Positions 994-57,800 of a DNA stretch of 64,000 nt are shown piece by piece; positions within the stretch are counted from its first letter, which is position 1; every line of letters starts with the position of its first letter. The stretch is from Ehretia macrophylla (lineage: Eukaryota; Streptophyta; Magnoliopsida; Boraginales; Ehretiaceae): the NCBI GenBank assembly GCA_037974665.1, contig CM075781.1, positions 39,308,235-39,372,234 of the forward strand, written 5' to 3'. A model generated the notes under the pieces. The model saw only the letters and a program-made list of their open reading frames with translations. It was not told the DNA's origin and searched no databases. A program made the position numbers and the translations under genes.

Positions 994-1011
994 TCTACAA
1001 CCAACATTTGT

Positions 1012-1988: not shown

Positions 1989-2343
1989 GGACGATGGCTT
2001 CTTTGTATCTCATTCGACAAGATCGTATAGATCTTTGCAGTATAAAAGATCTTCCATCATCGTCCTCCAAATTTTGTAATTTGAATCTGTTAATTTCAAC
2101 ATGGAGCTAGAACCGGACTCCATGATTTTTCCCTCTGAAATTCTGTATAAATAGTAACTATGCCGTATATACGGACAATACCATATATACCGATAATATA
2201 GTAATTATCAAATGTACCGTACGTACAGATAATATTATATATACGAGTAGTATAAAAAGTATGAATAATACCGTATTTATGAATAGTATCAATATGTACA
2301 AAAAATATTACTGTTCAATACTGACCTTGCTCTTGATGCCAGT

Positions 2344-2962
2344 TGTTGGGCCCGAACCTCCCACAGGATCAATTTGAAATATCAGATAATAACGGCAGAT
2401 AAAAGGAAATATGGTACACGTATATTTAATGTGGAAAACCCTCAATTAAGAAGGTAAAAAATCATGGGACAAACCGATAGAAAATCCACTATAAAATAAT
2501 ACAAGAATTAATACTCAAGTTTTTGTCCAAACTTGAGTTCCCTCAAATACAAAAATATCTCACTTTCTCTTTGAAGTGAACCTAGTCTTATTTCTAGAAC
2601 TACTCGTATTTGAGTAATATAAGAGAAAATACCCTTATAGAAAAATATCTTACAACTTTATCCTGGTTGTGAAATAACCCGGAGATTAATTCCTCACAAT
2701 AATCTCTCTATTTTTCTCACTCTTTTCTCTTTCTATTTTTCCTCTTTGTCTGTGCAATCTTTCAACTCCTCACCACCCCTATTTATAGAAGCAGGGGTGG
2801 TAAGAGATTGTTATCAAATTGATAACTTGGAAGGTTATCAATTTGATAACAATCACGGCTATCAAGCCGTGAATGTTGTCAAAAACAATTTGACAACATT
2901 ATTATTTTTTTCTTTCTTTGGCAACTTGGCCACTTGGCTATTCTAGATGGGGCTGGACCCCA
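2344..2962 (-). repeat. 5' LTR of the minus-strand copia element
   Basis: The LTR begins on the plus strand with TGTTGGGCCCG and ends with GGACCCCA, so it is bounded by TG...CA. A primer-binding site resembling the initiator tRNA-Met complement (minus strand TGGCATCAAGAG, about 2329-2341) lies just inside. It holds a block of repeated 'ccgtatatac'-like words (2160-2300 is just inside the element). Immediately to the right begins plus-strand copia RT sequence (reading D-I-L-V-T-G). Confidence 0.75.
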
Positions 2963-4211
2963 CCAGATATATTAGTAACGGGAAATAATGTGCCCTTTGT
3001 TACCACTCTCATTCAACAATTGAGCTCAGAGTTTGCTATTAAAGATCTTAGAACGTTGCACTATTTTATGGGTGTTGAAATCAAACCATTTCATGGAGGA
3101 GTATTTCTCTCACAAGCGAAGTACATCAAAGATTTGCTCTCACGGAAAGGAATGATAGAAAACACGTCCAATGCAACTCCAATGGCTCTCAAGGACAAGC
3201 CTCATGCTTCAGATGATACTCTTGTGGACGCTACCTCCTATCGTAGTGTTGTCGGTGCTCTTTAATACTTGACATTCACTCAGCCTGATATCACTTACGT
3301 TGTCAATCGGGTCTGTCAATTTTTAAATAATCCTACCATGTCACATCTTAAAGCTGTTAAATGGATCCTTTGTTATCTCAAGGGCACACAAGACTATGGT
3401 TTGCGCTTTGTCTCCAAGAGTCCTCTGTCTCTCTATGGGTTTTCTGATGCCGATTGGGCAGGTTGTCCATTGACACAAAGGTGTACCACCAGTTTTTGCG
3501 CATTTCTTGGAGCAAATTGTATCTCATGGTATTCTAAAACGCAACCTATAGTTGTTCGCTTTAGCTCCGAAGCTGAGTACTGTTCTATGGCTTCAACAAC
3601 TGCTGAGCTAACTTGGCTCGCCTTCTTACTTTGTGACATTGGGGTTCCTTTACTCAAGCCTCTTCAATTATTTTGTGATAATCTTAGTGCTTTGCACATG
3701 TCTGTCAACCCCTTATTTCATGCTCGAACCAAGCATATTGAACTAGATTATCATTTTGTACGTGAAAAGATGGCTATGGGTACCCTTATCACTCGTTATG
3801 TGCTTTCCTCTCTCCAGCTTGCTAATCTCGTCACCAAGTCTCTACCACGAGCATCCTTTATTCTTCTCCGAAACAAGTTGGGACTTCATTCACATTCTGC
3901 CTCCAACTTGAGGGGGCATGATAAGGAAGGTTTCTCAACAAGGAAAAAATTGTGTGATGACAATCACACAAACAATCAGGAGTAGACATAGCAAGCTGTC
4001 ATTATCAAGAAAATATTCAAGATCAGACATAGCACGTATTTTGCTGCAAAATTCAAGATCAGATCCACGATCAAAGGGACTAAATATATGCTGAGTTATT
4101 GTAATTCTTGTGTACACGGGATACATCTTTCTTAATGTATATAAATATGTACCAAGCAATCAGTCAAAATATACAACCACAATAGAGTTTTCAGACCCAT
4201 AAGAGTTTTCA
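2963..4211 (+). mobile_element. older Ty1-copia fossil: RT end, RNase H and 3' LTR
   Basis: The protein pieces at 2963-3985 read ILVTGNN, the LRTLHYFMGVEI motif, and the copia RNase H region with SDADWAGC, SSEAEYCSMASTTAELTW and KHIELDYHFVREKM. These are the last part of the copia reverse transcriptase and its RNase H. A polypurine tract (TTGAGGGGG) precedes the 3' LTR at 3919. The RT starts in the middle of its catalytic region, exactly where the opposite-strand copia element ends, so the younger element was inserted into this one and the rest lies left of the window. Broken in more than one place. Confidence 0.85.
3919..4211 (+). repeat. 3' LTR of the plus-strand copia fossil
   Basis: Starts TGATAAGGAAGG after the purine tract at 3908-3918. 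It contains a TATA-like word (TATATAAATATG, about 4137) and ends near 4189 or 4211 at a CA. Receptor-kinase coding sequence begins at once after it, so the exact end is uncertain by about 20 bp. Confidence 0.6.
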
Positions 4212-8843: not shown

Positions 8844-11800
8844 CTAGCTAGTAGTCGTGCTAGTTGCACCAGAGCTAGCAGTTGTGCTATTTGCATCCAC
8901 GGTAGGCTTGTCATCTTCAACCAAGGTAGTCGAGGTATTTGCCCCCGCGGCAGTCGCGCTATTTGTAAGCAATGGAAGGATTGCATTGACATACACTCCA
9001 ATGGAAGTTATACCCGCACCAGAGCTAGCAGTCGTGCTATTTGCATCCACGGTAGGCTTGTCATCTTCAACCAAGGTAGTTGAGGTATTTGCCCCCACGG
9101 CAGTCGCGCTATTTGCAGGCAAGGGAGGGATTGCATTGACATACACTCCAATGGAAGTTAAACCCGCGTTCATTGCAGAGCCATGGAAGCCACCGAATTG
9201 ACCGTTTTCTCCCACTACCATGTGAAACGCCTTATCGTATTTGGAGTGTTCACCAAAGGGTCCATATTTACCAAAATTTGTATGAAATGCGATAGATTTT
9301 ATAAAACGTTTGTCTCTCCAACCCCTTATGCTAGTAAGATACTCATTTGGTTTCAACTTCACCTGCTTTGCACATTCATCACATTAGTAAACCAAAAGAA
9401 AATAAAAGTCAGTTAAATCCCTCTGGTCACAAACTTCAATATTCAACGAAGTAATGGCACAAATTACTCCCACATTTTTTTTTATCTATTACAACATTTA
9501 AATATATTTAAGACTATTGCAAATAAGCTAAAAATCGTTACAAATAATTTTAGCCATTCCATATGGTGTCGTTGTAAATTCTCTATTGCAACGGGTTTTT
9601 TTTATAATAGATAAATAATATTTTAAAATCGTTGCCAAACAGTAATTTCATAAGCAATTATTAACAAAAAATTATTAATTTTTTTTTAATAAGGTTTACT
9701 TTTATACAAAAGTTAAAACCGTTGTAATAGGACACCTATTGTAATTATTTTTTTTCATCTTTTGTAATAATTATTTTAGTTTTTAACTAAAGCATTGGTA
9801 AAGATCCTAAACTTTATAGCGAATTGATCTTCATTTCTCTGATAAAAAAAAAAAAGAATTGATCTTCGTTTCATAAAATAATAGGACTCCTAGGCTTCGT
9901 TTGTTTGTCATAAAATATTTCCTGAAAAATGTTTTCCTATCATTCCGGTGTTTGGTAACACTATAAAAGTGGTCAACCGAAAATATTTAGTTAAAAGAGT
10001 GAAAAATATTTTTATGTCCTTTGGGAGAAGAAAATATTTTTCACTCATTCTACCCCCACATTCACCCACCCCACATCCGCCCCCGACCCCATATCCATTC
10101 CGTCATATTTTTAATTAATTATTAATAATACAAAAATTAAGTAATTTAACAATAAAAATAATTAATTTAATAATAAAAAATTAAGTAATTATATTAAAAT
10201 TAATTAGTTTAATAATTAAAATAATATAAAATTTATTAATAAAATAATAAAACTTCAAAATTCAATAAAATAAAATTAACTAATTCAATAATAAAAAATT
10301 AACTAATTCAATAATAAAAAAAGTTAATTAATTTAAAAATATAAATCAATTATTTTTAGAAAAGTAATTAATTTAATAATAAAAGATTAATTAGTTTCAA
10401 ATTAAGTGACTAATGAACTAATTAAATTAATAATTAATACAATAATATTTAATAAATGAATATTATCCAATAATATTGATTTATTTAATCTAAGATTTCT
10501 TATTCATTTATTAGCTATTAATTAATTATTCAACTAACTTAGTTTTAAATTAAGAATTTAATAAATTAATAATAATTAATTGAATAGCTATTATTGATGT
10601 ATGGAATTAATTATTTAATTTATCTATTATGTATTAATTAAGATTCTTATTAATTAATTATATTTCATTTAGTTTAAATTTATATTAATAAATTAATTAA
10701 TTAATATTGATCAATTATCAATATTTTCAAAAAAAATTAAAAAAGTAATAATTTTGATAAATTTTTTACTGTTACATTTAAATACCAAAAAATATTTTTT
10801 AGTGTGACAACTAAATATAAAAAAATATTATGTTTTTCAAGAAACATCATCAAGTTATCTTACGGCAAACAAACGGAGCCGTAAAATGCATTGGGATAAT
10901 ATAATTAACAAAATGACCCAAAATCATACTTCAATTAGCTTTTCATACAATTGATACCAATATACAATTTTATTGACTTAAGAAACCCTGATTTCAGTTT
11001 TTGTAGTCTAATCACCTTTGACAGATTTAAACCTAATGAAGTCTAATTTTCGAGCGTGATAAATTACAAGGCTATTTTCCAGCAACGTTAGGACATCCAC
11101 CTACATCATGTTTTGACTTCTTTGGATCCTCTCCTAACTGAGAGTTATTCTAACTTTTTAACACTACATCATGACCATTTATTTGAATTTTAAACTATAA
11201 AAATTAGAGGAAAAATGCTTTTGTTAAATGAATAAATGACCGAAATACAATATTAAAAAGTTAGAATAACTTTCAGTTAGAAGATGATTCAAATCCTTAG
11301 TTTCTGTTGATTATTATCTTGTGGACCAAATGATTTGATTCCTCTTATAGAGTCGAACAAGAGGGGTCACAAATCCCCTTGAATTGTAATAGTATAGCTT
11401 TTGGGGTTATCCCTTTATGTTATTAATAGAAAAGTAAAAGAATATCTATCGATAATATGTACATATAATGATTTACTTGTCTAATAAAAAAAAAATATTG
11501 ATTTACTTCTTGAGCAAAAAAAAAAAAAAAAAGAGTGAGAGAAATATACTCACAACGTCAAACTTGTCTCCGGATGACCCACCGTGTTTCTCTGATAACT
11601 TCTTGGAATTTCTATTCTCAACATACTGGAATTGAAGAGAATAAATTTTATCCCCGTGTGATATGAAAATTTGTTCAATTTCAGGGTGATTTTCATGCCA
11701 AACTTCTGTCTCATTCCCCACAGGATCAACCATGATCGTGTAATTTCCATCACGCCCTTCGTTGCTTGCTTGAGAGCTCTCAAGACGACTAGGGTTCCTG

Positions 11801-11856
11801 CCTGCGTTAGAGTTCAAAGAATGAGTGTTATTTAAGCAAGAGGTCATGCTGCCCAT
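8844..11856 (-). CDS. jacalin-related lectin, copy A (two exons)
   Basis: Exon 1 is 11856-11554 (101 residues from ATG) and exon 2 is 9362-8844 (172 residues plus stop). The intron has donor GTGAGT (11553-11548) and acceptor GCAG (right of 9362), keeps the frame, and is 2191 nt. The predicted protein is about 273 residues with no signal peptide, so it is probably cytosolic or nuclear like mannose-type jacalin lectins. A jacalin fold runs from about residue 41 (MVDPVGNETEVW) through KIYSLQFQY, EKHGG, NEYLTSIRGW, FHTNFGKYGPFG and GGFHGSAMN to SIGVYVN. The usual sugar-binding GxxxD before the last strand is changed: no Asp is present (GSAMN). The C-terminus has a 50-residue in-frame duplication rich in Ala, Thr and Ser. 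An upstream TTG or a 5' exon could alter the start. Confidence 0.8.
8869..9168 (-). repeat. 150-bp in-frame tandem duplication in jacalin copy A
   Basis: Units 8869-9018 and 9019-9168 are about 94 percent alike by eye. Each codes 50 residues: the last jacalin strands (GITSIGVYVNAI) plus an Ala/Thr/Ser-rich linker with VEDDKPTVDAN. The length is a multiple of three, so the frame is kept. Copies B and C have a single unit with a different tail (QWRDYLRVQIARLLNW). Confidence 0.9.
9893..10880. mobile_element. AT-rich terminal-inverted-repeat element (GGCTCCG family)
   Basis: Left end GGCTTCGTTTGTTTGTCATA and right end, reverse-complemented, GGCTCCGTTTGTTTGCCGTA. The interior is almost pure A/T built from TTAATTAATTTAATAATAAA-like words. 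Relatives are at 15157-15963 (the same locus in jacalin copy C) and 59014-59356. No transposase and no clear target duplication. The superfamily is unresolved. Confidence 0.7.
11124..11296. mobile_element. small foldback (MITE-like) element
   Basis: Arms GGATCCTCTCCTAACTGAGA (11124) and, reverse-complemented from the right, GGATTTGAATCATCTTCTAA... share CTAACTGA(G/A)AGTTATTC and CTAACTTTTTAA. It is present in the copy A intron. The matching place in copy C (about 16195) has other sequence. Confidence 0.55.
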
Positions 11857-12205
11857 TGTTGCCTGGCCTCCAAAGGTTTCCAAAAAAATCGCTTGTGGTG
11901 CAACTATAGGAACCAACACAATCAAGGATGGAGCGTGAAAGAATAAACAGTCAGTAGTTTAGTGTAGAAAATGGAGATACCTTTCTCTCTTTTTTTTTTT
12001 TGGTCAAGTGAACCTTTTCACATAACATGCTTAACATTTGACCCAACAAAGAAATAACATGCTTTTTCCACAAATTGGACCCAGAACAAAAAAAAAGTTT
12101 GTGCACTAAAGAAGATCTCAACCTGAGTGCATATTGATTGATGATTATTTTGTCTTGGTGTGCAAGTGGCTAATTAAGACCTACATTTGTCAGCATTCTA
12201 GCCAC

Positions 12206-12212
12206 ATATATA
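12206..12212 (-). promoter_or_regulatory. candidate TATA box of jacalin copy A
   Basis: On the minus strand the word is TATATAT followed by GTGGC, about 350 bp upstream of the chosen ATG. The same word lies at 13805-13811 upstream of copy B. The rest of the upstream block is conserved among A, B and partly C (20480-20720). The start site has not been seen directly. Confidence 0.35.
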
Positions 12213-12661
12213 GACCCCTAAAAAGTAAGATGTAAAGAGTGATCAATGTCTTAAAATATGATTACTTATTTGATTTGGAGTTCATAATTGAATACACGGA
12301 CTTTGTCCGCATCATCTATGATTGCATTTATATGAAATAAATTAACAAAAGTCCTACTGCAATTGTACAAAACATATAAATTATTAATTATAAAACATGC
12401 TGAGATTTATTGATACTTCTTCGCTCCCAGTGACACACAACCCGGCGAAGATCTCTTGATTCCCCGCGGCTAGACTGGCTTTTCAGGCTAAGAGCCCTTT
12501 CTCTTCATGAACAGATAAAACAGTTCAGAAAGAAAGCTAATCTAGATCCCAAAGACATCAGTTAAAGACATAAACATTCATCCACAAACTTAAGTTAGAT
12601 AGACGACTAGAGATCTAACACATTGAACGAAAAATACACCTTTTTCTTTTTAATTAATTTA

Positions 12662-13455
12662 TCACCAATTGAGGAGGCGTGCTATTTGCACCCTGAGGTA
12701 GTCGCGCCATTGGCACCCCGAGTTAGTAGTCGCGCTATTTGCAGGCAAGGGAGGGATTGCATTGATATACACTCCAATGGAAGTTATACCGTTCATTGCA
12801 AAGCCATGAAAGCCACCGAATTGACCGTCTCCTCCCACTACCATGTGAAACGCCTTATCGTACTTGGACTGTTCACCAAAGGGTCCATATTTACCAAAAT
12901 TTGTATGAAATGCGATAGATTTTATAAAACGTTTGTCTCTCCAACCCTTTATGCTAGTAAGATACTCATCTGGGCGTTTCAACTTCACCTGCTTTGCACA
13001 TTCATCACATTAGTAAACCAGCTGGTCACGAACTTCAATATTCAACGAAGTAATGGCACAAATTACTCCCACATTTTTTTATATATTACAACATTTAAAG
13101 ATTTTTAAGACTATTGCAAAAAAATTAAAAAGAGTGAGAGAAATATACTCACAACATCAAACTTGTTTCCGGATGACCTACCGTGTCTCTCTGATAACTT
13201 CTTGGAATTTCTATTCTCAACATACTGGAATTGGAGAGAATAAATTTTATCCCCGTGTGATATGAAAATTTGTTCAATTTCAGGGTGATTTTCATGCCAA
13301 ACTTCTGTCTCATTCCCCACAGGATCAACCATGATCGTGTAATTTCCATCACGCCCTTCGTTGCTTGCTTGAGAGCTCTCAAGACGACTAGGGTTCCTGC
13401 CTGCGTTAGAGTTCAAAGAATGAGTGTTATTTAAGCAAGAGGTCATGCTGCCCAT
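12662..13455 (-). CDS. jacalin-related lectin, copy B (two exons)
   Basis: Exon 1 is 13455-13153 (101 residues) and exon 2 is 12988-12662 (108 residues plus TGA). The intron is only 164 nt with GTGAGT and GCAG. The protein has 209 residues: an N-terminal tail of about 40, a jacalin domain (about 41-178) with VDPVGNETEVW, KIYSLQFQYV, DEYLTSIKGW, FHTNFGKYGPFG and SIGVYINAI, then a tail ending QIARLLNW. The sugar-loop sequence is GFAMN instead of the usual GxxxD, so binding may be altered. Exon 1 is nearly identical to copy A. The short intron results from loss of about 2 kb that A and C share, with the join in an A-rich run after 'actattgcaaa'. No signal peptide. This is the most compact and best-preserved copy. 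Confidence 0.85.
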
Positions 13456-13804
13456 TGTTGCCTGGCCTCCAAAGGTTTCCAAAAAAATCGCTTGTGGTGC
13501 AACTATAGGAACCAACACAATCAAGGATGGAGCGTGAAAGAATAAACAGTCAGTAGTTTAGTGTAGAAAATGGAGATACCTTTCTCTCTTTTTTTTTTTT
13601 GGTCAAGTGAACCTTTTCACATAACATGCTTAACATTTGACCCAACAAAGAAATAACATGCTTTTTCCACAAATTGGACCCAGAACAAAAAAAAAGTTTG
13701 TGCACTAAAGAAGATCTCAACCTGAGTGCATATTGATTGATGATTATTTTGTCTTGGTGTGCAAGTGGCTAATTAAGACCTACATTTGTCAGCATTCTAG
13801 CCAC

Positions 13805-13811
13805 ATATATA
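13805..13811 (-). promoter_or_regulatory. candidate TATA box of jacalin copy B
   Basis: Same word and spacing as the copy A candidate, shifted by the duplication distance of 1599 bp. Confidence 0.35.
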
Positions 13812-14701
13812 GACCCCTAAAAAGTAAGATGTAAAGAGTGATCAATGTCTTAAAATATGATTACTTATTTGATTTGGAGTTCATAATTGAATACACGGAC
13901 TTTGTCCGCATCATCTATGATTGCATTTATATGAAATAAATTAACAAAAGTCCTACTGCAATTGTACAAAACATATAAATTATTAATTATACAACATGCT
14001 GAGATTTATTGATACTTCTTCGCTCCCAGTGACACACAACCCGGCGAAGATCTCTTGATTCCCCGCGGCTAGACTGGCTTTTCAGGCTAAGAGCCCTTTC
14101 TCTTCATGAACAAATAAAACAGTTCAGAAAGAAAGCTAATCTAGATCCCAAAGACATCAGTTAAAGACATAAACATTCATCCACAAACTTAAGTTAGATA
14201 GACAACCAGAGATCTAACACATTGATCGAAAAATACACCTTTTTCTTTTTAATTAATTTATCACCAATTGAGGAGGCGTGCTATTTGCACCCTGAGGTAG
14301 TCACGCCATTGGCACCCCGAGTTAGTAGTCGCGCTATTTGCAGGCAAGGGAGGGATTGCATTGATATACACTCCAATGGAAGTTATACCCGCGTTCATTG
14401 CAGAGCCATGGAAGCCACCGAATTGACCGTCTCCTCCCACTACCATGTGAAACGCCTTATCGTATTTGGAGTGTTCACCAAAGGGTCCATATTTACCCAA
14501 ATTTGTATGAAATGAAATAGATTTTATAAAACTTTCGTCTCTCCAACCCCTTATGCTAGAAAGATACTCATCTGGGCATTTCAACTTCACCTGCTTCGCA
14601 CATTCATCACATTAGTAAACCAAAAGAAAAACAAAAGTCAGTTAAATCCCGCTGGGTCACGAACTTCAATATTCTACGAAGTAATGGCACAAATCACTCC
14701 C

Positions 14702-14702
<1 letters not shown>

Positions 14703-14741
<39 letters not shown>
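14703..14741. repeat. (AT)n microsatellite in copy C intron
   Basis: Uninterrupted alternating A/T of about 39 bp, at the place where copies A and B have a T-rich run (9476, 13075). Confidence 0.9.
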
Positions 14742-14742
<1 letters not shown>

Positions 14743-15156
14743 CTATATTTAAAGATATTTAAAACTATTGCAAAAAGGCTAAAAACCGTTGCAAATTTAA
14801 TCGTTCCATATGGTGTTCTTGCATTTGGTTTCGTTTTAAATTCTCTATTGCAGCGATTTTTTTATAATAGATAAACAATATTGTAGAACAGTTGTCAAAA
14901 AGTAATTTTATGAGCAATTATTAGCAAAAAATTATTAAACAAATTTTAACCCTTGCAAAAAGTTTTACTTTATTCAAGAGTTAAAACCGTTGCAAATAAA
15001 ACACTTATTGCAACGGTTTTTTTCATATTTTGGAATAACTTATGTATTTTTTAATTAGAGCGTTGCTAAAGATCCTGAACATTATAGCGAATTGATCTTC
15101 GTTTCTCTGATAAAAAAAAAGAATTGATCTTCGTTTCATAAATAATAGGACTCCTA

Positions 15157-42707: not shown

Positions 42708-45700
42708 TTTTAGGTACTAGACCCAAGGTTAGGTCTAAGCATCCTTTTGGCTAATGACAGCTATTTGTTTTCCATCTATCGTGATGCTGGGTCTTCTGAT
42801 CTCCCCGAGCTGGACTATTGTTCCCTCAGCTGTGTTTAGCACTAACCTAGATAGCACGTATGTTTTTTCATTTTCTCTTCAAGGGATCTGTGTTATATTA
42901 AATCGATTAAACCGGAGACAATATCTTTGACACATGATAGGTATGCCGCCATGGCGGGCTCTTTCACCCCGTATTCCCCTTGAACTTAGTAAGTCACCAG
43001 TTGTGAATTTGTCTGTACATCTACAGCCCGTGCCCCCAGTGATTTTGTTGTTTTCAGTCCCGCCACAAAAGCTTCATATTTCGCTTCGTTATTTGAAGCA
43101 GAAAACCTAACTTTGAGTGAGTACAACATATTTTCCCCGGTTGGGCTTTCCAGTACTACCCCCACTCCGCTCCTTTGTCTACTGGAAGATCCGTCAACCT
43201 GTATATGCCAGGTCGGATCTTCTACCTGGGTTCTTTTGGTGCACTCGACTATAAAGTCTGCGAGCACTTGGGCTTTTATTGCCAATCGGGGTTGGTACTC
43301 GATGTCAAATTGACTTAATTCTACTACCCATTTCAATAGGCTCCTTGACATTTCTAGTTGACTCAAGACTTGCCTTAGTGGCAAGTTCGTCATTACTCTG
43401 ATTAGGTATGCGTTGAAGTAGTACTTAAGCTTCCTTAAGGCAGTTATTAGGGCTAAGATGACTTTCTCAATTTGCGAGTATTTTTCTTCGGCCCCTTGAA
43501 GAGCTTTACTGACATAATATACTGGTTTTTATGTTCGCCCGTCTTCTCAGACCAAAGCCACCATTACCGCCATTGCTATCACTGACAAATATGCATAGAG
43601 CGGCTTTCCTTGCACAGGTCGGGTCAGTATTAGAGGATAACTTAGGTACTCTTTTAGTTCTTCGAAGGCCTTCTAACATTCTTTTATCCAGTGAAAGTTT
43701 TTTGGGCCCCGTAATATTTTGAATAAGGGTGCACATTTGTTAGCCGATCGGGCCATGAATCTGCTAAGTGCGGCCACCTTCCCTGCCAAGGATTGTTCAT
43801 CTCTCACGCTCAGCGGGGGGGTTATCCCGAGGATGGCTTGGATCTTGTCTGGGTTTGCTTCGATACCTTTGTGGGTGATCATATATCCTAAGAATTTCCA
43901 AGCCTTTATTGCAAACGCACACTTTTCATGGTTTAGCTTGATTCCAAACCTCTTCATGGTCTCAAATGCCTCCGCTAGATCAGTAGGGTGATTTTTCACA
44001 CTTTGGCTTTTTACCACCATATCATCTATATAGACTTCCATATTTCTCTCGATCTAGTGTTGGAAGACATGATTCATCATTCTTTGGTAGGTAGCTCTTG
44101 CATTATTTAATCCGAAAGGCATAACTGTGTAGCAGTAGGTGTCTTTGTCGGCAATGAATGAAGTTTTCTCCTCATCTTCCGGAGCCATCTTGAGTTGATT
44201 ATATCCCTTGAATGCATCCATGAAGGACAACATCTAGCTCCCAAAGATTGAGTCTACCAGCTGATCTATCCGGGGTAGAGGATAGCAGTCTTTCGGACAT
44301 GCCTTGTTGAGGTCAGTGTAGTCCACACACATTCGCCATTGACTTGAGGCTTTCATCACTAGGACCACGTTGGCCAGCCAGGTCGGGTATTGTACTTCTC
44401 GGATATGGCCAGCCTTTAGGAGCTTCTCAACCTCTTCTTTGATGGTTTAACTCATTTTAGGGTGGAAGTTCCTACGTTTTTGCTTCACCGGCCTATAGTT
44501 TGGGTCGACGTTCAAGTGATGCGCTATGATGTTTAGGTCTATTCTTGTCATGTCAGAAGTAGATCATACAAATACATCTTTATTTTCAAATTAAAAGTTG
44601 GTTATACCTTCTCTCATTGATGGATTCAGCTTGCCGCCAACCCGAATTATTTTTCTTGGCTCCAGCTTGACCTTATCCAGCTTTTCCACTGGGACTGCTT
44701 TTCTTTCCTCTTCCTTCATCTCTTTCTTACTTTCCTCCCTTACCCCGTCCCATGGACTTGGGCCTCGTATTTTTAGCGCTGCAGCGTAGCATTCTTTTGC
44801 CACCCTTTGGTATCCTCAAACTACTACTATGTCCTCAGGCGTTAGGAATTTCATCACCTTGTGATAAGTTGAGATTACTGCCCTGAGATGATGGAGGGCC
44901 AGATGCCCTAATATCTCGTTGTATGTTGATTGACAGTTTATTACCACGAACTCAGTCATGAATTGGACCTGTTTGTCTTTTGACCCTATAGTGAGAGGGA
45001 GTTAGATAGTGCCTTCTAGTTTGAAACCATGGCCAGTGAATCCTATTAGTTCACTGTTGAATGCAGCGAGTTGTTCCCTGATGAAACCCATTCTTAGATA
45101 GGCGTCATAGAATAGTACATCCGTCGAGCTGCCCGTATCCACCATCAACCGTCGAACTTTGCATTTTGCAATTTGTTCGGTGATCACTAATGGATCGTCA
45201 TACTGGGTTTTTACTCCTTCCAAGTCGTAGGTTGAGACGATTAACTCCTCATGAACCTTTGACTTTTTGGGTAACGAATCTTCATTTCCTAAGCTTATAT
45301 ATGCTCTATTGGCCGACCTGTTGATTCCTTCTGCTGTCGATCCTCATATGATCATGTTGATATCGATCAATCTTCCATCAACCCTTCGCAGGCTTCTATC
45401 CCTTTCATGACTAGCTACGTGCTCAGGATCTTGCCCCTTTTTAGCTATGTATTTGTCTCACTTCTCTAGGCTTCAATTTCATTTTTTAAGTTTTTGCACT
45501 CATTGGTTTCATGACCGTAGTCTTGGCGAAACCAGCAGAACTTCTCTTTTCCCCTTCTATCTGGGTTTGATCTTATCCACGCTGGCCATTTGATGTTAAG
45601 GTCAGGTCGGGACTTGATCTCCATTAGTACCTCTGACCTAGCCATGGTTAGTGGTATGTATTTATCGAACCTTCTTTTGTGAGCTGAAGAGCTCGTTGTT

Positions 45701-45788: not shown

Positions 45789-45793
45789 GGTCC

Positions 45794-47973
45794 TGTCACG
45801 CCCCAACCCAACCCCACATAAAAGGTTAAGTCTGGATCCGACAAACGGACATAGTCTCCTTTGTACCGTGGACATTCTAAAATCCTGTAACAATCAAATA
45901 AAGCCACAACATAGCAAGATTTCTATTTCCAATTAAAGATCTTAGCTTTAACGCCATCCGAGCCTTAAGACATACAAACAGTTTAGATTCATACAAACAT
46001 ACATTCACAATATAACTTCTTTACAAAACCCACTTATCATGTCACTCTATGATAGTAATTAAACATTCTTAGAAATTAAAAACAACCATTCAACTAGTCA
46101 TTCACTTTCAAGCATGCAAAGCAACAAAGAGCAGAAATATAAGTTATTACATGTCATAGTTCCACATCTTCTACTATAATCAACTAGCTTCCAACTTACA
46201 ACTACATCAATATATACTAAGCACTTAGACTACAAAATAGGACATAAATTAGAACAAACAGGATCTCCACATAACAACAAGAACCATGAATCCACCTCAA
46301 GCAATTAGGCACTGCAACTAAGGTAATTGATCAGTCCCCTCAACCAAATCAAGTTGGGGTTCAACCATAGCGTCTCCTGAAACATGTTAGCGAGGTATGA
46401 ACAACCACAATTGCCCAGTGAGGGATAAAAGTCTACCAGGGGCGTGCAATGTAACAATTATAGCAGTTAAGCAAGAAGGGCAAGTAAAGTACATTTGAAA
46501 CAGTAAGTAACCACACATATCAAAGGATACGATACACTTAACCCCAACACTCCAGAATTCTTTGTATCTTCGATCACGAACCATGAACCACGATCACGAT
46601 CAATGTACCGGTATAACCCCAATCATTCCAGTGGGTGTACTCCGGATGTACCCCGAGAAACCTATGACCCAATACCCCCTATCAATCTCCGGACTAGGCG
46701 AGTGAGGGACTAGGGCACGGAGATTGAATATCCACTAGCAAGCCCGCTGTCGCCCAGCCGATATTCAATATAATTGCCCCTGACACTATGGTTGCGCAAC
46801 CACTATGCAATGCACTTAATAAAGGAAATATAATAATAACAATTGAAGCAATAAGACATGGGAGGAACAACAAAGTAGGTTGTCCTCAAAACAATTAGAA
46901 TAGAAGCACTATCATAAAAGCAACTGAGCAGTTTACAAATGGGAAATTACAAAATTCACATAAAACTATACCAAAAGCTCAAGAATGTCTTAAAAACACA
47001 TTTAAACACCCAAGGAACAGTTACAAGATCAAAGAAGCGAGAGAACCAATTTCTTACTTTAACCCCTTTGTAACTCAAACTGTTTTCCTTCCAAACTCAT
47101 GTTATGGTTCTAGATTAGTAAGTGGCATATTCCATGCTTCTAGTTAACCCCTTAGGTACCCTTAAGATCCTCGAAGTCACCTAGTTACCCGCATTTAGCC
47201 CAAAAGCCCCAATTTTCCCTACGAATCAACCATCGATTTTAACCGTTTAAAATACAAAATAATAGCATAAATGTGGTCTCTACTACTTGTATACAACATT
47301 CATTAGCATATTTGAGCATTTCATGATCATATAAGAGCAAATCAAGAAATTCAAGAAATGAGCAACATTTTTAAAATGCAAAAACAAACATGAAATCCCT
47401 TGCTTATTGCATGTAAGAGCTAAGGAAAGGCTAGAACACTAGGGGAAGGGCTTGAACCTAGCTTGGGAGGGCTTGGTTTGAAGGTTTGATGGCCAAAAAT
47501 TCTCCTCTTCTCCTCTTTCTTGCTATCGGGTTTGGCACAGTAAAAATCAGCTTTTTTTTTTTTTTTGAGTTGCCTTATGAGCTTATTGTGTTGGGTGAGT
47601 ATATATGCTAAGAGGTGTTAAGTTGAGTGAGTGATTAGTCTATAAAAATGAGTCTAATTAGCATAAAACAAGTCTAAAGGTGCAATCTAGTGTTAGCTAA
47701 TTAAAACACATAGTTTAGTTACATAACACTATTTATTAGTTCGACAAAACATTTTCTAAACGGATGCTCCTATTGCTTTTAGCTCAAATGCACATTTTTA
47801 TCATTCCTAAAATAATTAATATCAATTATGAAAAATGTTATTTCGAAGTAATTAAGCAGTTGAAAAATGGAATGAATAGTAGCTACTTAAAGCAACAAGT
47901 AAAGCACAGTAGAATTGCGCAAATAATAGATGCAACTGTAAATAAATGTACGGTTAAGATCTTGGGCGTCGCA
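45794..47973 (-). repeat. 3' LTR of the Tekay-type element
   Basis: On the minus strand it starts TGCGACGCCC and ends GGGGCGTGACA, 2180 bp. A purine tract (AAAGGGGAGAGGG, 47974-47986) directly precedes its start. Contains the shared hairpin block (46667-46717) and a word GGTTGCGCAACC at 46791. Confidence 0.85.
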
Positions 47974-48065
47974 CCCTCTCCCCTTTAAACTAATGCGCCC
48001 ATGCAATTCTTATATGTTTCGGCAAATAACTCAGGCTAGCGATCCCGCATTTGATCCTCACTTTT

Positions 48066-51000
48066 TTACATTGCATCCTCTAACCCATGGTGATCCCACA
48101 TAACCTTAACCATCGGAATGCTTTTAGTCCTGAGCTCCTGAACCTTCTGATCTACAACTCGTAGAGGTTTCTCCGTATAAGTCAAAGTCTCACTGATCTC
48201 CAGCAGCTCTGGCTCAAGAATATGAGAAGGATCTGGATGACACTTCCGAAGCATAGATACATGGAAAATATCATGAATTCTGCCTAAGCTAGGAGGTAAA
48301 ACTAGTTTGTAGGCCAGTGCACCAACTCTCTCAGTGATTTCAAACAGACCAACATATCTTGGACTGAGTTTACCTTCTTTACCATGTCGAATCAAACCCT
48401 TCTGAGGAGAGATTTTCAGAAACACCCGATTACCCACGGCAAACTCCAAATCTTGGCGACGTTTATCTGCATAACTCTTCTGCTGACTCTGAGTTGTAAG
48501 CATCCTCCTTTTGATAAGCTACACATGATCAATCATTCGGATCATCTCAGACAATAGAGTAGGGTCGATAATCTTCATCTCACTAACCTCATCCCAATAG
48601 AAAAGAGACTTGTATTTACGTCCATAAAGTGCCTCATACGGTGCCATTCTAATGGTGGCTTGATAACTATTGTTATAGGTGAACTTTGTGAGTGCAAATA
48701 TTTCTCCCAACTCTTTCCGAAGTCCAGAATACAAGCTCATAACATATACTCGAGGATTAAGATAGTTCTCTCAAATTGGCCATTCGTCTGAGGGTGATAA
48801 GTAGTACTGAAGCTCAAGGTCGTGCTTAAAGCTTTCTATATCTTCTGCTAGAACTGAGATATAAATATGGGATCTCTATCTGACACAATACTCTTTGAAA
48901 TCCCACGAAGTCTGACAATACTCTCAACATATAAACTCCGCTAACTTATCAAGAGAATTAGACTTCTTTTTAACAATAAAGTGGGAAGTCTTGGTCAATC
49001 TATCAACAACAACCCAAACTAAGTCATTACCTCTCGAAGACCTCGGCAAATCTAAGACGAAATCCATAGTAATATGATCCCACTTCCATTCAAGTATAGC
49101 CAAAGGATGTAATAACCCTGCAGGTCTCTGATGCTCCGCTTTAACTTTCTAACATGTAAGACATCTAGCAATATAGTCGGCAATCTCTCTCTTCATGTTG
49201 TTCCACCAGAAATTCTGTTTCAGATCCCTATACATCTTTGTACAGCCCGGATGGATAGTATATTTAGAACTGTGTACCTCAGCAAGAATATCCTTCTTCA
49301 AGGCTGGCTTACTCGGAATACAGATGCTACCTTTGAATTTGAGAATGCCATCATCATGCAGTTCGAAGTCCGACTCTCCCCCTTTAGACTTTTCTAAGAT
49401 TTTCAATAAATAAGGATCAGTTTGTTGAGCTTCTCTAATCTTGGATAACAACAGAGATTGAATCTGCAGACTTTCAAATTGAATACCAAAATCTGAAGTC
49501 TTAGGTTTCCATAAACATAGTTCTTCCATGAATTCCCAATTTTTGATAATCAAGCTAGCAACATTAACCTTTCGATTCAAAGCATTACCAACAATATTGG
49601 CCTTTCCTGGAAGATAATTAATCGTTCAGTTGTAATCCTCAAGTAACTCCAACCAACGCCTCTGCCTCATGTTCAACTCTTTATGTGAAAACAGATATTT
49701 CAAGCTCTTGTGATCTATAAAGATTTGAAATTTGTTGCCCCATAGATAATGACGCCATTTCTTTAATGCAAGAATAATAGCTGTGAGCTCAAGATCATGC
49801 GTCGGATAGTTGAGTTCATAAGGTTTTAGTCTCCTGGAGGCATATGCAATAACCTTTCCATTATGCATCAATACACATCCTAGACCTTCCTTAGAAGCAT
49901 CACTATAGATTATTAGGTTATCATAACCCTTAGGCAAAGCAAGAATAGGAGCTGTGGTTAACCTCTTCTTCAATTCCTGGAAACTAGCCTCACACTTATC
50001 ATTCCAAACAAACACAGTCTTCTTCTGAGTAAGCTAAGTCAAAGGTCCAACAATTTTTGAGAAGTCCTTGACAAATCTTCGATAATACCCAGCTAAGCCA
50101 AGGAAGCTATGAATCTCTGTAACAGTTTCAGGTCGTTTCCAAGCTAATACAACCTCAATCTTCGCTGGATCAATAGAAATACCATCATGCGAGATAATAT
50201 GACCAAGAAAAGCAACTTGTGTTAACCAGAATTTGCACTTACTGAACTTCGCAAATAACTGATGCTCTTGAAGAGTCTGCAACACAATCCTGAGATGTTG
50301 TTCATGTTCCGCCTCTGATTTAGAATATACCAGAATATCATCAATAAAGATAACCACAAATTGGTCCAGATAAGGACGGAATAGCCTCTGCATTAAATCC
50401 ATGAATACGGCGGGAGTATTAGTCAAATCAAACAGTAGAACAACAAACTCATAATGGTCATAACGAGTTCTGAAAGCAGTTTTAGGAATATTATCTTTCT
50501 TAATCCTCAACTGATAATAACTCTGCCTCAGATCGAATTTAGAAAATACTTTGGCACCTTGCAACTGAGCAAATAACTCTTCAATCAAAGGCAAATGATA
50601 TTTGTTTTTAACAATCACCTGACTAAGACCCCGATAATCGATGCATAAGTGAAGAGATCCGTCTTTCTTCTTAACAAATAGAATTGGTGCACCTCAAGGC
50701 GAAGAACTCGCCTGAATGAATCCCTTCTCAAACAAGCCCTGCAATTGAACTTTCAACTCTTGCAAATCGGGTAGAGCCATTCTATACGGAGTCCTACAGA
50801 TAGGTGTAGTCCCCAGTAATAGGTCAATCATAAACTCTATCTCTCTATCAGGCGGTAAACCAGACAATTCCTCAGGAAAATCCCCGGAAACTCTCTCACA
50901 ATAAGTACATCATTCAATTTCAATTTGTCCCCAGGTTGATTAATTAAATATGCAAGATACGCCTCACAACCTTTGCTCAACAATTTTGACGCCTTAATAG

Positions 51001-51225
51001 AAGAAATTATAGGAGTTCCAGTTGATTTTCTACTTCCAACAATTTCAATTACAGGTTGGTAAGGCATTTCTAGTTTCACAATCTTCTTTCTACAATCAAG
51101 TTATGAATAATATCTTCCCAACCAATCCATCCCCAGAATAATTTCAAAGTCGTTGAATGGTAGAATAATCAAATTAGTAGGAAATACATGACCCTCAATA
51201 AAAATATTACAAGCTTTACAAATAA
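48066..51225 (-). pseudogene. Tekay-type pol: protease end, RT, RNase H, integrase, chromodomain
   Basis: Minus-strand order: protease end with ILGMDWLGRY (about 51125), RT with [19 protein letters not shown] (about 50340), RNase H with [19 protein letters not shown] (about 49850), integrase zinc finger HPGCTKMYRDLKQNFWW and YIARCLTC (about 49170-49240), core pieces near 48520-49000, and a C-terminal chromodomain-like end (IHDIFHVSMLRKCHPDPSH, then VKVMWDHHGLEDA). A chromodomain marks the Tekay/Del chromoviruses, which target heterochromatin. The first protease part is missing at the strand switch near 51225. Fossil. Confidence 0.88.
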
Positions 51226-51477
51226 ATTTGGTAAGGAACATGCTAGCATGGAAATGGAATGTGAAAAGTCTTTTAAGAGTTAATGATTGAATGTGAAAGG
51301 TTTAGAATGAAAAGTATGATTAAGTGACTTATATGTACTTCTTGAATATGAAATATTTATATGACTTTTATATGTGACCTTTTGTGAAATTATTTGAACT
51401 TTTCCTTATGTGTTTACTTGTAAACTGCATATATATATATATACATGTCATAATACCTTGCATTGTAGCTATTCGAG

Positions 51478-52334
51478 ATGGGGCCTCATCGACAAAACAT
51501 GAATCAAAATGTTAGGGATGAAGAGGTTGACCAGCGGATAATTAATGCACAGCTGACCGCTGCTATTAGGCCAATTGCTCAAGTACTTCAGAGGCAGGGA
51601 GGAAATGTCCCCGCAGGTAATCCGATACAGGGTCAGGTTGGAGCAGAGGGTGGTGGAGGTAACTACTTAGAAAAATTCTTACACCGTAGGCCATCTAGTT
51701 TCTTCGGGGAGCCCGACGATATGCAGGCTGAACAGTGGTTGAACAAGGTAGAGAAGATTCTTATAGGTCTCGAGTATTTTGATGCGAGGCGGTTGCATGT
51801 GCTGAATTTTTGCTTGAGGGAAATGCAGAGTAGTGGTAGCACACCGTGAAGTCAAGATGGGAGGTGGAGGCAGTACTGAGGACTTGGGATAAGTTTGTTA
51901 GAGAATTTCGAGAGAAGTACATTACTGAGACAACTATTAAAAGATGTGAGCAAGAGTTCATTAATCTGAAACAGGGGAACATGACTGTTGATCAGTATAA
52001 TGTTGCTTTCACTCATTTGTCCCGTTATGTGCCTACATTAGTCCAGCCAGAGAGCAAGAAAATCCAAAAGTTCATTATGGGGCTGAGACCTGATATTTCC
52101 TTGAACTTGTCTACTCAAGATTACCCCACTTATGCAGCCGTAGTCAGGATAGCTGCCAGGTATGAGAAACGCAAAGCAGACCTATTTGGAGAGCCGAGTC
52201 AGCCTAGTAAACGACCGCATCAGACTCAGAGTTAGGGGTTTCAGAGGCAGACTGTTTCAATGGGTCAGAGTCAGTAGCCGAGGCAGACTCAGAGTTATTC
52301 AGGGCCTACTCAGACTCAAGCACGACCAGTTCAG
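51478..52334 (+). pseudogene. Tekay-type gag in opposite orientation to pol
   Basis: The plus-strand translation contains FLHRRPSSFFGEPDDMQAEQ (gag of Tekay/Del), VRTWDKFVREFREKYI-like sequence, LKQGNMTVDQYNVAFTHLSR, and a Gln-rich, Ser-rich tail. The usual gag-pol order is broken by orientation: gag is on the plus strand here and pol on the minus strand to the left. 51226-51477 is leader-like AT-rich sequence. A CCHC knuckle was not seen before the LTR end at 52335. Fossil. Confidence 0.85.
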
Positions 52335-52401
52335 AGGAGACTCTGTCCGTTTGTCGAGTCCGGACTTAACCTTTTACGTGGGGTTGGGTCAGGGCGTGAT
52401 A
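52335..52401 (+). repeat. inverted copy of the LTR end
   Basis: Reads AGGAGACTCTGTCCGTTTGT...GGGTTGGGTCAGGGCGTGATA and matches the reverse complement of 45794-45860. It directly abuts the right GGTCC duplication. Confidence 0.85.
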
Positions 52402-52406
52402 GGTCC

Positions 52407-53439
52407 ACTGTATCTTCCTTAGATGTAATGTACTTTCTATCATTTTTCATCAAGTGGTCCAAGTCTCTAGGTTCCTTCCTGTCAAGGGAGGAACAGAAGT
52501 GCCTAGATTTGGTTAATCCTTGCTTATAGGCCGCTATGGCCACTACTTCCTCCAGACCTGGGATGTCCAAGGTTGCTTTGTTGAATCTCTCTGTGTATTC
52601 GCGGAGAGTTTCATCTTTTCCTTGCTCCAGTCGGAATAGAGAAGTAGTGGGCTTTGACGCCTTGGTGCTACTGGTGAATCTGTTCAGAAAAATTTCAACC
52701 AGGTTAGCATAATTTCTAACACAATCCTTTGGTAAACCACCGAACCATTTTCTTGTAGTGTCATCTAGTGTTCCGGGGAATGCTTTGCATTTGACTTCCC
52801 CATGCACTTCTTTAAAGAGCATAAGGTGGTCGAAGCGTTGCACGTGGTCTTTTGGATCTCTTATTCCGTTATATACTGGAAGGTTGGCAACTTATATGCT
52901 GCCGTTGACACCTCTCGTATTCTTTTGACAAACGGATGGAAGCATTGGCTGCTTACTGACCTTCTTAAATTCTTTGGGATCCTCGCCAGGTCCGAATCTA
53001 ACCCGTCATTTTCTTGCCTTCATGGCCTCCTTACTTCCCTGCTGAAGGAACTGGTAGAATTTTCCCTCATCTTCTCTTTCCGTCTTGGTTCCTTTTGCCT
53101 AAGCGGAGACCATTGGTCATTTTCTGAATGAGCTTTCTGTGGAGCTGGAGGCTGTTCTCTATTTGACCTTTGCTTCTGGATGAAACTGTCCATAGTTTGT
53201 TTCATGTCGAGGACCAGTTGCGTGAGTGCTTGCATCTCACTGCGCGATACGGGCTTTTGTGCCGGCTGCTCAGTCTGGGCTGTTCTAGATGGTTCGACCG
53301 GGCTTTCTTGTGGCTGTGTGATATTTTCGGCTGGAGCATCCACTTCCGGTATCGGGGTTACTCCAGCGAATTGCCGCTCATTGTTGTTCGGTGGTGATAG
53401 ATCGCTAGAGCTGGCATGGCTTCTAGTATGAACCATCAT
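52407..53439 (-). pseudogene. Tat element gag
   Basis: The minus strand begins near 53439 with MVHTRSHASSSDLSPPN and continues with a low-complexity N-terminus. The central gag contains LTQLVLDMKQTMDSF, then WFGGLPKDCVRNYANLVEIF, RLEQGKDETLREYTERF and YKQGLTKSRHFCSSL, which is the retrotrans-gag core. The C-terminal gag lies at 45400-45788, beyond the Tekay-type insertion. Fossil. Confidence 0.88.
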
Positions 53440-53969: not shown

Positions 53970-54402
53970 ACTTTTACTTTTTGCATGTGATGGGAAACCT
54001 TCACCATCCCCAAGGAAAAGTGCTGCTTGGCATGCGTGGCGCACTAACAATTCAAACAAGTTTTGATCTGCTTTCTCGGTGGATGATGGAACTTCCACTT
54101 GCTTCAATAATTGGTTCGAGTACGTAAATTCTTTTAGGCACCAAGTGGAGAAAATACATGTAGTAAATGTCACATTTAAATATTAAGTTATTATATAAAA
54201 TTAATTTATATTAATTTGTATTGTATAAATATATTATATTAGAATATTTAAATTTTTTTTTTACTAATTTAACTTTACAGAATTTTAAATAAATTATTAT
54301 AATGTCCTCACTTATAATAATTAATTAATATTTATTAACTAATTGAATCACTTTTTATTTATATGTATGTGATAAATTTACCACATACTTTATAAAAAAA
54401 AA
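53970..54402. other. intergenic, no gene seen
   Basis: Host flank of the Tat insertion (after CTTCT) followed by AT-rich DNA. The short open frames are without recognisable motif. 54394-54402 is the A-run that forms the left target duplication of the next element. Confidence 0.6.
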
Positions 54403-54589
54403 GGGTAAAATGCAGCAGTAGTCCCCATTGTTTACTCAAAAATCAATTTAGTCCCCATTGTTTCAAAATGCTCAAAAAGGTCCCCAATGTTTGTAAACAT
54501 GCTCATTGTGGTCCCTACCGTTAGAATTTTTGTTAGTTTTAACATATGTGAATAGTATTTCAAGGGTAAATTTGAAAAATCACAAAAAA

Positions 54590-54850
54590 CACAAAATCTC
54601 ACACAAAAATACCAAAAAATACACACTAACACACCTACAAACACACGCACTCACCAAAAAACACACACTAACACACCCACTAACACACGCACTCACATAA
54701 ACATAAAAAAAAATACACTAATACACACACATTAACACACCCACAAACACACACTAACACCAAAAAACACATACTAATACACACCCATAAACACACACTA
54801 ACACCAAAACACACACTAATACACACCCACAAACACAAACTCACATTTGA
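54590..54850. repeat. (ACACAC)-rich degenerate tandem repeat
   Basis: Words such as ACACACACTAACACACCCAC and ACACCAAAAAACACA repeat about ten times with varied spacing. Confidence 0.85.
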
Positions 54851-54901
54851 CCAAAAAAAAAAAAAAACACAAACTCACATAGAAACTAGAAACATAAAAC
54901 A

Positions 54902-55200
54902 CTGTTCGCGCAAGGGGGGGGGGGGGGGGTGGGGACTGTTTCGCGCAGGGAAAAAAAAAAAAAAACACAAATTCACATAGAAACATAAAACACTGTTCGC
55001 GCAGGGGAGGGGGGAGGGGGGAGGCGCTGTTCACGCGCAGGGGTGGGGTGGGGTGGGGGGGGTGGTGGGGACTGCTTTCGCGCAGGGGGGTGGGGGGGGG
55101 GGGGGCGCTGTTCGCGCAGGGGGGGGGTGGGGGGGCGCTGTTCACGCGCAAGAGGGGTGGGGGGGGGGGGGCGCTGTTCCGTGCGCAGGGGGGGTGGTGG
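54902..55200 (+). repeat. G-rich minisatellite with unit C(T)GTTCGCGCAGGGG
   Basis: Eight words of the CTGTT(C/T)...CGCGCA type (starting near 54903, 54938, 54992, 55028, 55071, 55108, 55138 and 55173) are each followed by long runs of G up to about 17. The plus strand is almost free of C outside the CGCGCA words. It could form G-quadruplexes. Open frames across it are low-complexity (Gly- or Pro-rich) and not gene evidence. Confidence 0.9.
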
Positions 55201-55467
55201 GTGGTGGTGGTGCTTGGTGGTGCTTGGTGGTGCTTGTGGTGGTGGGTTGAGGGGTTAGAAGAGGAAGAAGAAGATAGGGATATTTTGGGTATTTTATTTT
55301 TAAGTAAGGGTAGTTTAGTCATTTTATAAATTTTCTGTTAGATTTTTAACGGTAGGGACCACAATGAGCATGTTTACAAATATTGAGGATCTTTTTGAGT
55401 ATTTTGAAACAATGGGGACTAAATTGATTTTTGAGTAAACAATGAGGACTACTGCTGCATTTTTCTC

Positions 55468-57800
55468 AAAAAAAAACCCCAACAATGGCGTGAGAACTTT
55501 TTGTACTGTTTTTTTCTTTTAAATAAATATTGTATGATATCGTTCTCCTCCAACAAAACGAAAAAAAGATAGAAAATATTATTTTTTATTCTTGTTGGTC
55601 AGTTCAACTTTACCCTACTTTTTCACTTTAGACTTTATATAAGGAACAGAATCTGTGTCAAGTTATTCAAAGGGATCGGCACTTAATTACTTGTGTATCT
55701 TCTTGCCCTTTAGGTTCACTTTTTCGAGGTAATATTTGTTGTAATTAATTGTGCGTGTAGTTTTAGTTATTTTAATTATGCATGCATGCATGGTTACTTC
55801 AATCATCTCAACTTCAGGCTCCAAAGTTATCATTAATTACCACTTGTCTAGCTTTAAATTTAGAGGTTAGCATTCTTATGTAGATCGGTCTTTTGATATA
55901 CTTGTACATTCATCTCATATATATATATAGTTTTAGATTTTAATGATACCCTTACTTATTTAGCAAAAACTTCAGGCTCCAAACTGTATTTCTTCCTCGA
56001 TGCTATCAATTCAACACTTCGTAAATTTATGAAGAAAGAGAAAAAAATTTTACCCTTGCAAAAGTGCTCAGCCTTTAAAGCATATTATTAAATGCATACT
56101 TCATGTAGGCACTCCCTTCATGTAGGTTAAATAATTTTTAATTGAATCTTACATGTAGATGTAATTTTATAAATGAGTGACGGTAAGATTTGAACGAGAA
56201 TTTTTTGATACTTAAATTTTAATACTATATTAAATGACCATTTCATTAAAAGTTTAATGTTAAATAAAAATTTGATCTATTTATTTATTGCGCTCAACAC
56301 ATGGTTGAATAAGAAAACAAAATTCCTTTATCTTATACTTAGGATAAATAATACAGTTCTAGTAAAATTTGACATAAGAACAAAGTTTTGTTCCGCAGCA
56401 GTAAGTATTTGGACTTTTGAAGCATGGTTTGCAATTAGTATGCGCCAAACGCTCGAATTTGTTTACCTTTTTTTCTCCTCTTTTTCTCTAAGTGTCGTGT
56501 TTTTTTTTTTTTTTTTTTTTTGGTGCAATGGCACAAATATAGACCACTTTAAGGTTGGCAGAGGCAAAAGATTGACTTATGGATTTATGGCTGAATCTCT
56601 GATCGTAAACCATTCCACTCAGATCTCATATTATAGAATTTTCTTTTTGCCTATTCAAACATGTCAAAAAAGTTGAGAAATCTATGAAATTGAAGCTCAT
56701 GGTAAATAGTGTAAAACTAAACTGTTTTCCTGGTAACTGAGAACTATATTCCTTATGCTTGAGGTTTACAAGCTCTAGTTGTACACCTTAAACCAATCAT
56801 TGCTTCTCTGGAGTTTATGCCACATCTTAAAGTATAATGACTAATGTCCCACTGAGATGTGATTAATAAGTGACTTTAATGTTGCGAGTTTATAAGTGAT
56901 GACTCGCATTAATTATTTTTGATTAGTTGAGTTTAGACCCAAATATTTGTTTCATAAACTTGCAAAATAGTCTCACTTGCGGATCTAAGATTCTTGACTC
57001 ATAACCCGACATTAACAGACTTTTACCATTTTTCGGTACATAATACCATCTTAGTTTCATTTCCCACGTCCTCAGCTCTACTTTTTTATTTTTTATGTTT
57101 GGTATAATTTTTCAATAATGCATTTAGACGAGTTAATGACATAATATGTACATACTTAAAAGGTTTGTTCTTCACTGCCAAGATAGCTTTCTCTCAACTG
57201 CAGCATTATTTTGTTCAACCAATAAACCATCGAATTGGAAACTGAGCTATCACGAGCGGTTAACATGAATGATGACAGCTTGATAACAGAAAGAGCAATG
57301 CGACATGGTATGATTTTATTCATTTCAAAAATCTTTTATTACTCATCAGAATACAATATCTCTCTCTCAGAGTTTGTGGCAAAATACATTAAATTTCTTT
57401 TCTGATTTCATTTATGCTTTCATTTATTTCGTAGTTAATTAAGTTTAATTAAAAATTAATTTGAAAGAAACATTTTCTTATTGTAGAAGTTTGTAAGTTA
57501 ATTCTTGCAATATTTGTTTAATAAGGAATGATGGACTATGCGTAAAGCTGCATGTAACTTTTTCCGGTATTGGTGAACACTGACCAAAATAAGTACTTAA
57601 TTTTCATAATTTTACACATTGTATTGTAGTTCCCTGCCTAGTTGATAATCTATTTTCACAGCGATAAGACACGATAAACATCATGAGTTTCAATGAATTT
57701 TCAAGAAACTTCTCAAAACATTATACCGAGAAAAAAAAAAAAAAAAAACTTCTCAAAACATTAATGCAGATTTTCATCTCAAGCTTTCTGTTAGAATATA
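55468..57800. other. intergenic, no gene seen
   Basis: AT-rich with a poly(T) run at 56501-56521. The open frame at 56257-56676 has no recognisable motif and contains the T-run (Phe-rich). No transposon ends were recognised. Confidence 0.55.

Follow-up and report, generated by a model that had tools for sequence, protein, structure and literature searches.

One insertion in the DNA analysed here (a window of 64,000 nucleotides from Ehretia macrophylla) carries the same end of a long terminal repeat (LTR), the U5 end, at both of its outer ends. It lies at 45794-52401 and has a 5-bp target-site duplication (TSD) on its flanks. That it entered in a single integrase-type event, as an aberrant cDNA with two U5 ends, is well supported. 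On balance, it is probable that one aberrant cDNA of Ty3/gypsy type was rearranged before integration by template switching and was then inserted by integrase through its two U5 ends. In this natural insertion, a retrotransposon integrase seems to have brought together two U5 ends and left a clean 5-bp duplication. The pairing of two U5 ends has otherwise been studied with short DNA pieces in vitro. The order of the template jumps can be read because two copies of the insertion keep an earlier, tandem form.

Structure of the insertion

The assembly comprises 1.58 Gb in 20 contigs, and the window lies on contig C18. The insertion interrupts the gag of another retroelement, and its parts are arranged as follows.

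45789..45793: left copy of the TSD, GGTCC, abutting the left end; uninterrupted at similar sites
45794..47973, minus strand: LTR of 2180 bp, the 3' LTR belonging to the pol half and the one LTR that is complete, aligned with the LTRs of relatives among L049-L054; the left outer end is its U5 terminus, TGTCACGCCCC, and its U3 start, TGCGACGCCC, is at 47973
47974..47986, minus strand: polypurine tract AAAGGGGAGAGGG, adjoining the U3 start and named by position and composition
48066..51234, minus strand: pol half, with reverse transcriptase (RT), RNase H and integrase pieces, stops and frame breaks
51228..51234: head-to-head joint of antisense pol and sense leader, with the 7-nt microhomology TTGGTAA
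51228..51477, plus strand: untranslated leader, without its first ~130 nt and without the primer-binding site (PBS)
51478..52336, plus strand: gag start and capsid region, shortened and with frame breaks
52329..52336: gag-to-U5 joint, GTTCAGAG in the window
52329..52401, plus strand: U5 end of 73 bp, finishing at the LTR terminus; right outer end
52402..52406: right copy of the TSD, GGTCC, abutting the right end; uninterrupted at similar sites
52407..52891, minus strand: interrupted host gag, which continues to the left of 45793

The plus-strand gag (PF03732) faces minus-strand pieces of RT, RNase H and the integrase zinc domain. The domains thus confirm the opposed gag and pol of an earlier sequence-only reading, which had put the strand switch at 51225 and not at 51228-51234. 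Pfam matches were obtained for five of the eight pieces of the insertion (RVT_1, RT_RNaseH, Integrase_H2C2, SH3_Tf2-1, and Retrotrans_gag with Ty3_capsid), and the other three gave no Pfam match. The domains, the LTR and the polypurine tract, together with the PBS of the relatives, are those of a Ty3/gypsy LTR retrotransposon. The PBS-like TGGTATCAGAGC, which from its motif we take to be a tRNA-type site, is present in relatives and in two copies of the insertion (L044 and L046). The ordinary order in the relatives L049-L051 is LTR, about 120 nt with the PBS, leader and gag, about 516 bp, pol and LTR. The pol half lacks the stretch that carries, in relatives, what is presumably a DSGA-type protease motif, recognised by eye in L050. 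The name Tekay was given in the sequence-only reading, and membership of that clade is judged by a C-terminal chromodomain and by position in an RT tree. No chromodomain match was found in the C-terminal piece at E values up to 10, in a search whose filters drop most matches above 0.1. Compared with viral contigs, the RT and gag pieces found no relatives.

Two U5 ends and a target-site duplication

The left end starts with TGTCACGCCCC and the right end finishes with GGGCGTGATA, and GGTCC abuts each. With the TSD included, the inverted arms (45789-45866 and 52329-52406) are 78 nt long and 86% complementary. The right terminus is GACA in the other four copies of the region described below, and the TA ending occurs in the window only. 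The right end matches the inverted U5 at 61 of 71 ungapped positions with a score of +51, and the best of 1000 shuffles reached -2. Against the element's own U3 start it matches at 21 of 71 positions ungapped, or in 38 of 75 columns with gaps and a negative score. The proposal that both outer ends are one and the same LTR 3' end in inverted orientation therefore stands, and the extended terminal inverted repeats of a normal LTR were rejected, since the U3 start fits the right end so poorly. A short terminal repeat is common to the U3 start and the inverted U5 (score -1, 43 of 75 columns with gaps), but it leaves the fit of the right end to the inverted U5 unexplained. No U3 start is left at the right end. 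The left and right U5 ends differ from each other at 8-13 of 71 positions, about as much as they differ from other copies, so that they do not demonstrate a common parent.

GGTCC flanks the insertion on both sides in the window and in four of the five copies in all, which upholds the duplication originally noticed; the fifth copy (38.72 Mb) has GGTCT on the left. A pattern across both flanks was searched in the whole genome with three mismatches allowed, and it returned seven sites (2-3 mismatches), taken as host relatives from a 35-base match alone, in which the host-like sequence is uninterrupted. GGTCC stands there once, exactly in two of the seven and as a one-base variant in five. An insertion made by integrase has a TSD of fixed length at its LTR termini, present in a single copy at uninterrupted sites, and both features are found here.

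An ordinary element that was inserted here and rearranged afterwards by inversion, deletion and gene conversion is very unlikely as a source of these ends. The copies were indeed altered by later recombination, as a lost unit and a mixed unit testify. This history would nevertheless need a breakpoint exactly at the TSD, an objection already raised from the window, and one that also placed a U5 terminus against GGTCC. The arrangement is present in all five copies (with a CA ending in four and TA in the window), and the right side retains no U3 start.

Five segmental copies of one insertion

The region occurs five times on C18 in the same orientation, at 38.72, 39.36, 40.22, 40.89 and 41.29 Mb, over a span of 2.6 Mb. 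Host flanks and internal joints are common to all five copies. Pairwise divergence is 1.9-7.6% across four compared stretches (LTR, pol and both host flanks), and the two outermost copies, at 38.72 and 41.29 Mb, are the most alike (1.9-2.8%). Since five diverged copies have the same flanks and joints, a single insertion that was later spread by segmental duplication accounts for them, and to judge by sequence the five are segmental duplicates of that insertion. Assembly error is ruled out, as the joints are common to copies that lie 1.9-7.6% apart; their independent divergence disfavours a slip of the assembler.

Copying to five places, and a second tandem unit with a PBS, are not visible from the window, which shows a reduced form.

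The copies also differ by other events. At 54402-55469 the window has about 1.07 kb with 120-bp inverted ends (95%) that is missing from all four other segmental copies; it is a DNA-transposon-like insertion of the window copy only, and an A-run obscures its target duplication. The left host flank of the 40.22 Mb copy (L047, positions 761-3136) contains about 2.4 kb of extra DNA, either side of which matches window positions 44223-44228; this too may be a later insertion. Elsewhere in the window, 11519-13131 and 13118-14785 form a direct tandem duplication of about 1.6 kb with 94% identity.

Tandem leader-gag-U5 units

Two of the five copies, those at 38.72 and 41.29 Mb (L044 and L046), contain two leader-gag-U5 units in tandem. 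Where the units meet, TTTAGG, the PBS TGGTATCAGAGC and a complete leader come after the U5 terminus, as in ordinary elements, and this spacer is 92% identical to the leader of L050 over 132 nt. In a tree of the units, all single units fall into a clade with unit 2 that leaves out unit 1 (98% ultrafast bootstrap), and all units of the insertion together form one clade against four ordinary elements (100%). The outcome is alike with the whole unit or with the left 800 columns alone. These clades indicate that the two units are older than the segmental copies. Divergence between units 1 and 2 is 8.3-9.0%, compared with 1.9-7.6% between copies. Substitutions accumulate at about 1.3e-8 per site and year, and at this rate a unit divergence of 8.5% would correspond, as a rough guide, to 3.3 million years. 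Across the U5-end stretch the units differ at 8 of 71 positions, which resembles the difference between the outer U5 ends and does not tell one parent from two.

A single-unit form could not have given rise to the PBS stretch, so the simplest view is that the form with two units came first and that three copies, that of the window included, later lost one. Nowhere do the three single units all agree with unit 1 in a state that is absent from the four outgroups. The unit of the window (51228-52401) is mostly unit-2-like on its left, nearer to unit 1 in its last 71 bases (5 versus 11 differences), and mixed between. This is the reverse of the pattern left by a plain deletion, so gene conversion has to be assumed; the pattern suggests that conversion between segmental copies shaped this unit.

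Internal joints and their microhomology

Both internal joints have short sequence in common between their partners. The 8-nt GTACAGAG is found both in related gag copies and in many related U5 ends, and the leader and antisense pol share the 7-nt TTGGTAA. Each of the other four loci has GTACAGAG once at the gag-to-U5 joint, and the two second units have GTACAAAG and GTACAAAA there. A longer match, GACTCTGTCCGTTTGT, was considered for gag and U5 and rejected, as related gag copies put the match at GTACAGAG. Chance was gauged from 300,000 random pairs of breakpoints in one ordinary relative (L050). A match of 8 nt was reached in 1.7e-4 of gag/U5-type pairs and one of 7 nt in 4.8e-4 of leader/antisense pol-type pairs. 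It counts against the template-switching reading that gag matches the insertion's own left U5 (GTACAAAG) over 5 nt only, a length reached in 5.9e-3 of random gag/U5-type pairs.

A genome-wide search for the joint at 51228-51234 gave five perfect matches and no more, all on C18 between 38.72 and 41.29 Mb and in one orientation. The other 85 of the 90 matches have two or three mismatches, and those in examined loci are ordinary or second-unit leaders. For the gag-U5 joint, with three mismatches allowed, there were exactly seven matches, none with more than two mismatches and all inside the five loci. Neither joint was found elsewhere in this assembly, and the genome-wide search for the strand switch proposed earlier thus yielded segmental copies and no independent insertion.

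About 50-70 nt before the LTR terminus, at the jump site, the U5 ends of L001-L020 and L049-L054 have ACARAG-GAGA-CTYTGT, a possible small stem with some paired changes. It is fully paired in 9 of 26 U5 ends (11 with G-U pairs), with seven wrongly anchored right-end rows left out. As evidence the hairpin was dropped, since it folds no better than shuffles.

A proposed route and its alternatives

We infer the following steps of reverse transcription, and the action of integrase that ends them. Minus-strand synthesis would have started normally at the tRNA on the PBS, fixing one terminus at the U5/PBS boundary. About 73-80 nt into U5, a short match (GTACAGAG in relatives) would have let it jump to gag. 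Gag, leader, PBS and U5 would then have been copied and a second jump made at the same place, giving two tandem units; two co-packaged RNAs, each used once, would account for exactly two. A switch at TTGGTAA in the leader onto an antisense strand, a normal minus-strand cDNA, would have reversed the sense of synthesis, which then ran along pol and the 3' LTR as far as the other U5/PBS terminus. Both outer ends would be U5 because both are starts of minus-strand DNA. The product would have been inserted into the gag of another element and carried by segmental duplication to five places on one contig, with three copies losing a unit.

The idea of a rearranged cDNA integrated through two U5 ends, first drawn from the window, gains from the TSD, the uninterrupted similar sites and the five diverged copies. 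Of the two routes then offered for the rearrangement, template switching fits both joints, and autointegration is not supported, since at neither internal joint of the window does an LTR terminus meet internal sequence. Several points weigh against the template-switching reading. Microhomology-mediated end joining of two cDNAs explains the inverted joint equally well. A double jump at one site is awkward to assume, except from a template RNA that was already duplicated in tandem. The 6 nt between the LTR terminus and the PBS imply that integrase would have to trim more than 2 nt.

The main rival, possible though rather unlikely as a whole, is an origin from two 5'-truncated cDNAs with one good U5 end each, integrated in trans in one integrase complex, whose free pol and leader ends the host joined by microhomology-mediated end joining. 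This origin would likewise produce two U5 ends, the TSD and the 7-nt microhomology, and the left and right U5 ends, about as unlike as those of other copies, allow two parents. The gag-U5 joints would still need a separate template switch or a tandem duplication, and one molecule more is required than with a single switched cDNA.

It is doubtful that the template RNA already had a tandem leader-gag-U5 with two PBS copies. In that case a primer on the inner PBS would have yielded the U5-gag end with no jump, leaving the inversion as the only change made in this cycle. This variant overlaps with the template-switching reading, and the likelihoods given to the two need not exclude each other. One earlier microhomology event would explain the identical joints. 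However, a search for a parent with the tandem duplication found none, as all seven places of the joint lie in these five loci, and two final units would require three PBS copies or one further jump.

Autointegration, in which the cDNA attacks itself and the product then integrates, is expected to leave LTR termini at internal joints. It is highly improbable here: an LTR terminus joined to internal sequence is absent at both window joints, the one near-match (at most two mismatches) besides the outer ends and the U3 start, at 46439, does not end in CA and lies away from the joints, the inner U5 terminus of the two-unit copies runs into a natural PBS, and both joints have microhomology; integrase acting on its own cDNA does produce inversions, but the products, said for HIV to be inverted and subgenomic circles (PMC2644782), are circles without free ends.

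To return to template switching followed by integration, an integrase able to hold two U5 ends has a counterpart in vitro, where a complex of HIV integrase and LEDGF is reported to bind two U5 DNA duplexes (PMC3623958).

Comparison with known elements

Complex LTR retrotransposon insertions with TSDs, made by template switching and with three LTRs in one orientation, were described by Sabot and Schulman (PMC1950507). As here, each is a single insertion with a 5-bp TSD, which excludes later recombination, and its cDNA was fused in reverse transcription; their elements differ in having three LTRs, two internal regions in the same orientation and ordinary outer ends (PMC1950507). The present insertion has one LTR and an inverted 73-bp U5 end, and its halves face each other. 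It has the flanking TSD and the single insertion of the complex elements, and neither their internal LTR nor two matching outer LTRs. The present case shares with them the TSD and a likely origin in reverse transcription; it differs in that its halves are inverted and both of its ends are U5.

HIV-1 proviruses with internal inversions (two proviruses, each 1.3%) also have an inverted stretch, but two U5 outer ends are not described in the part of that report drawn on here (PMC9278108). When HIV integrase is weakened, aberrant integrations likewise do not use the two ends in the ordinary way; host enzymes are reported to insert one end, with host rearrangements (PMC5041404), in contrast to the clean 5-bp duplication seen here. 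DIRS-1 has inverted terminal repeats around its coding part, but it is reported to use a tyrosine recombinase (PMC5633606), whereas the present insertion carries pieces of an integrase, is flanked by a 5-bp TSD and has ordinary LTR elements as relatives. Since it has an integrase zinc domain and a TSD, and since its Pfam matches include no recombinase domain, it is not DIRS-like. L1 elements are target-primed and have neither LTR nor integrase, and they differ in this from the present insertion. Some L1 insertions are 5'-inverted, and these too are reported to contain an inverted stretch within a retroelement insertion (PMC2912911). Searches of open-access papers turned up no description of an insertion with two U5 outer ends.

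Recurrence and significance

Tentatively, the insertion may show that integrase, in a natural genome, joined two U5 ends of a cDNA whose termini are both tRNA-primed starts of the minus strand, a head-to-head molecule made from two co-packaged RNAs and integrated with full fidelity. If this route is real, such insertions should recur across large plant genomes. They can be sought by outward-facing U5 termini with a common 5-bp duplication, and annotation tools that rely on two direct LTRs would probably overlook them. In this genome 2693 U5-like ends were counted; by eye, no outward-facing pair within 15 kb was seen among the matches listed (about 100, all without mismatch). On contig C2, three same-strand U5 ends (4224382, 4231925 and 4239188) and three same-strand leaders (9287306, 9294362 and 9301857) are each spaced at 7.1-7.5 kb, and both triplets are candidates for multi-LTR complex elements of the Sabot-Schulman type.
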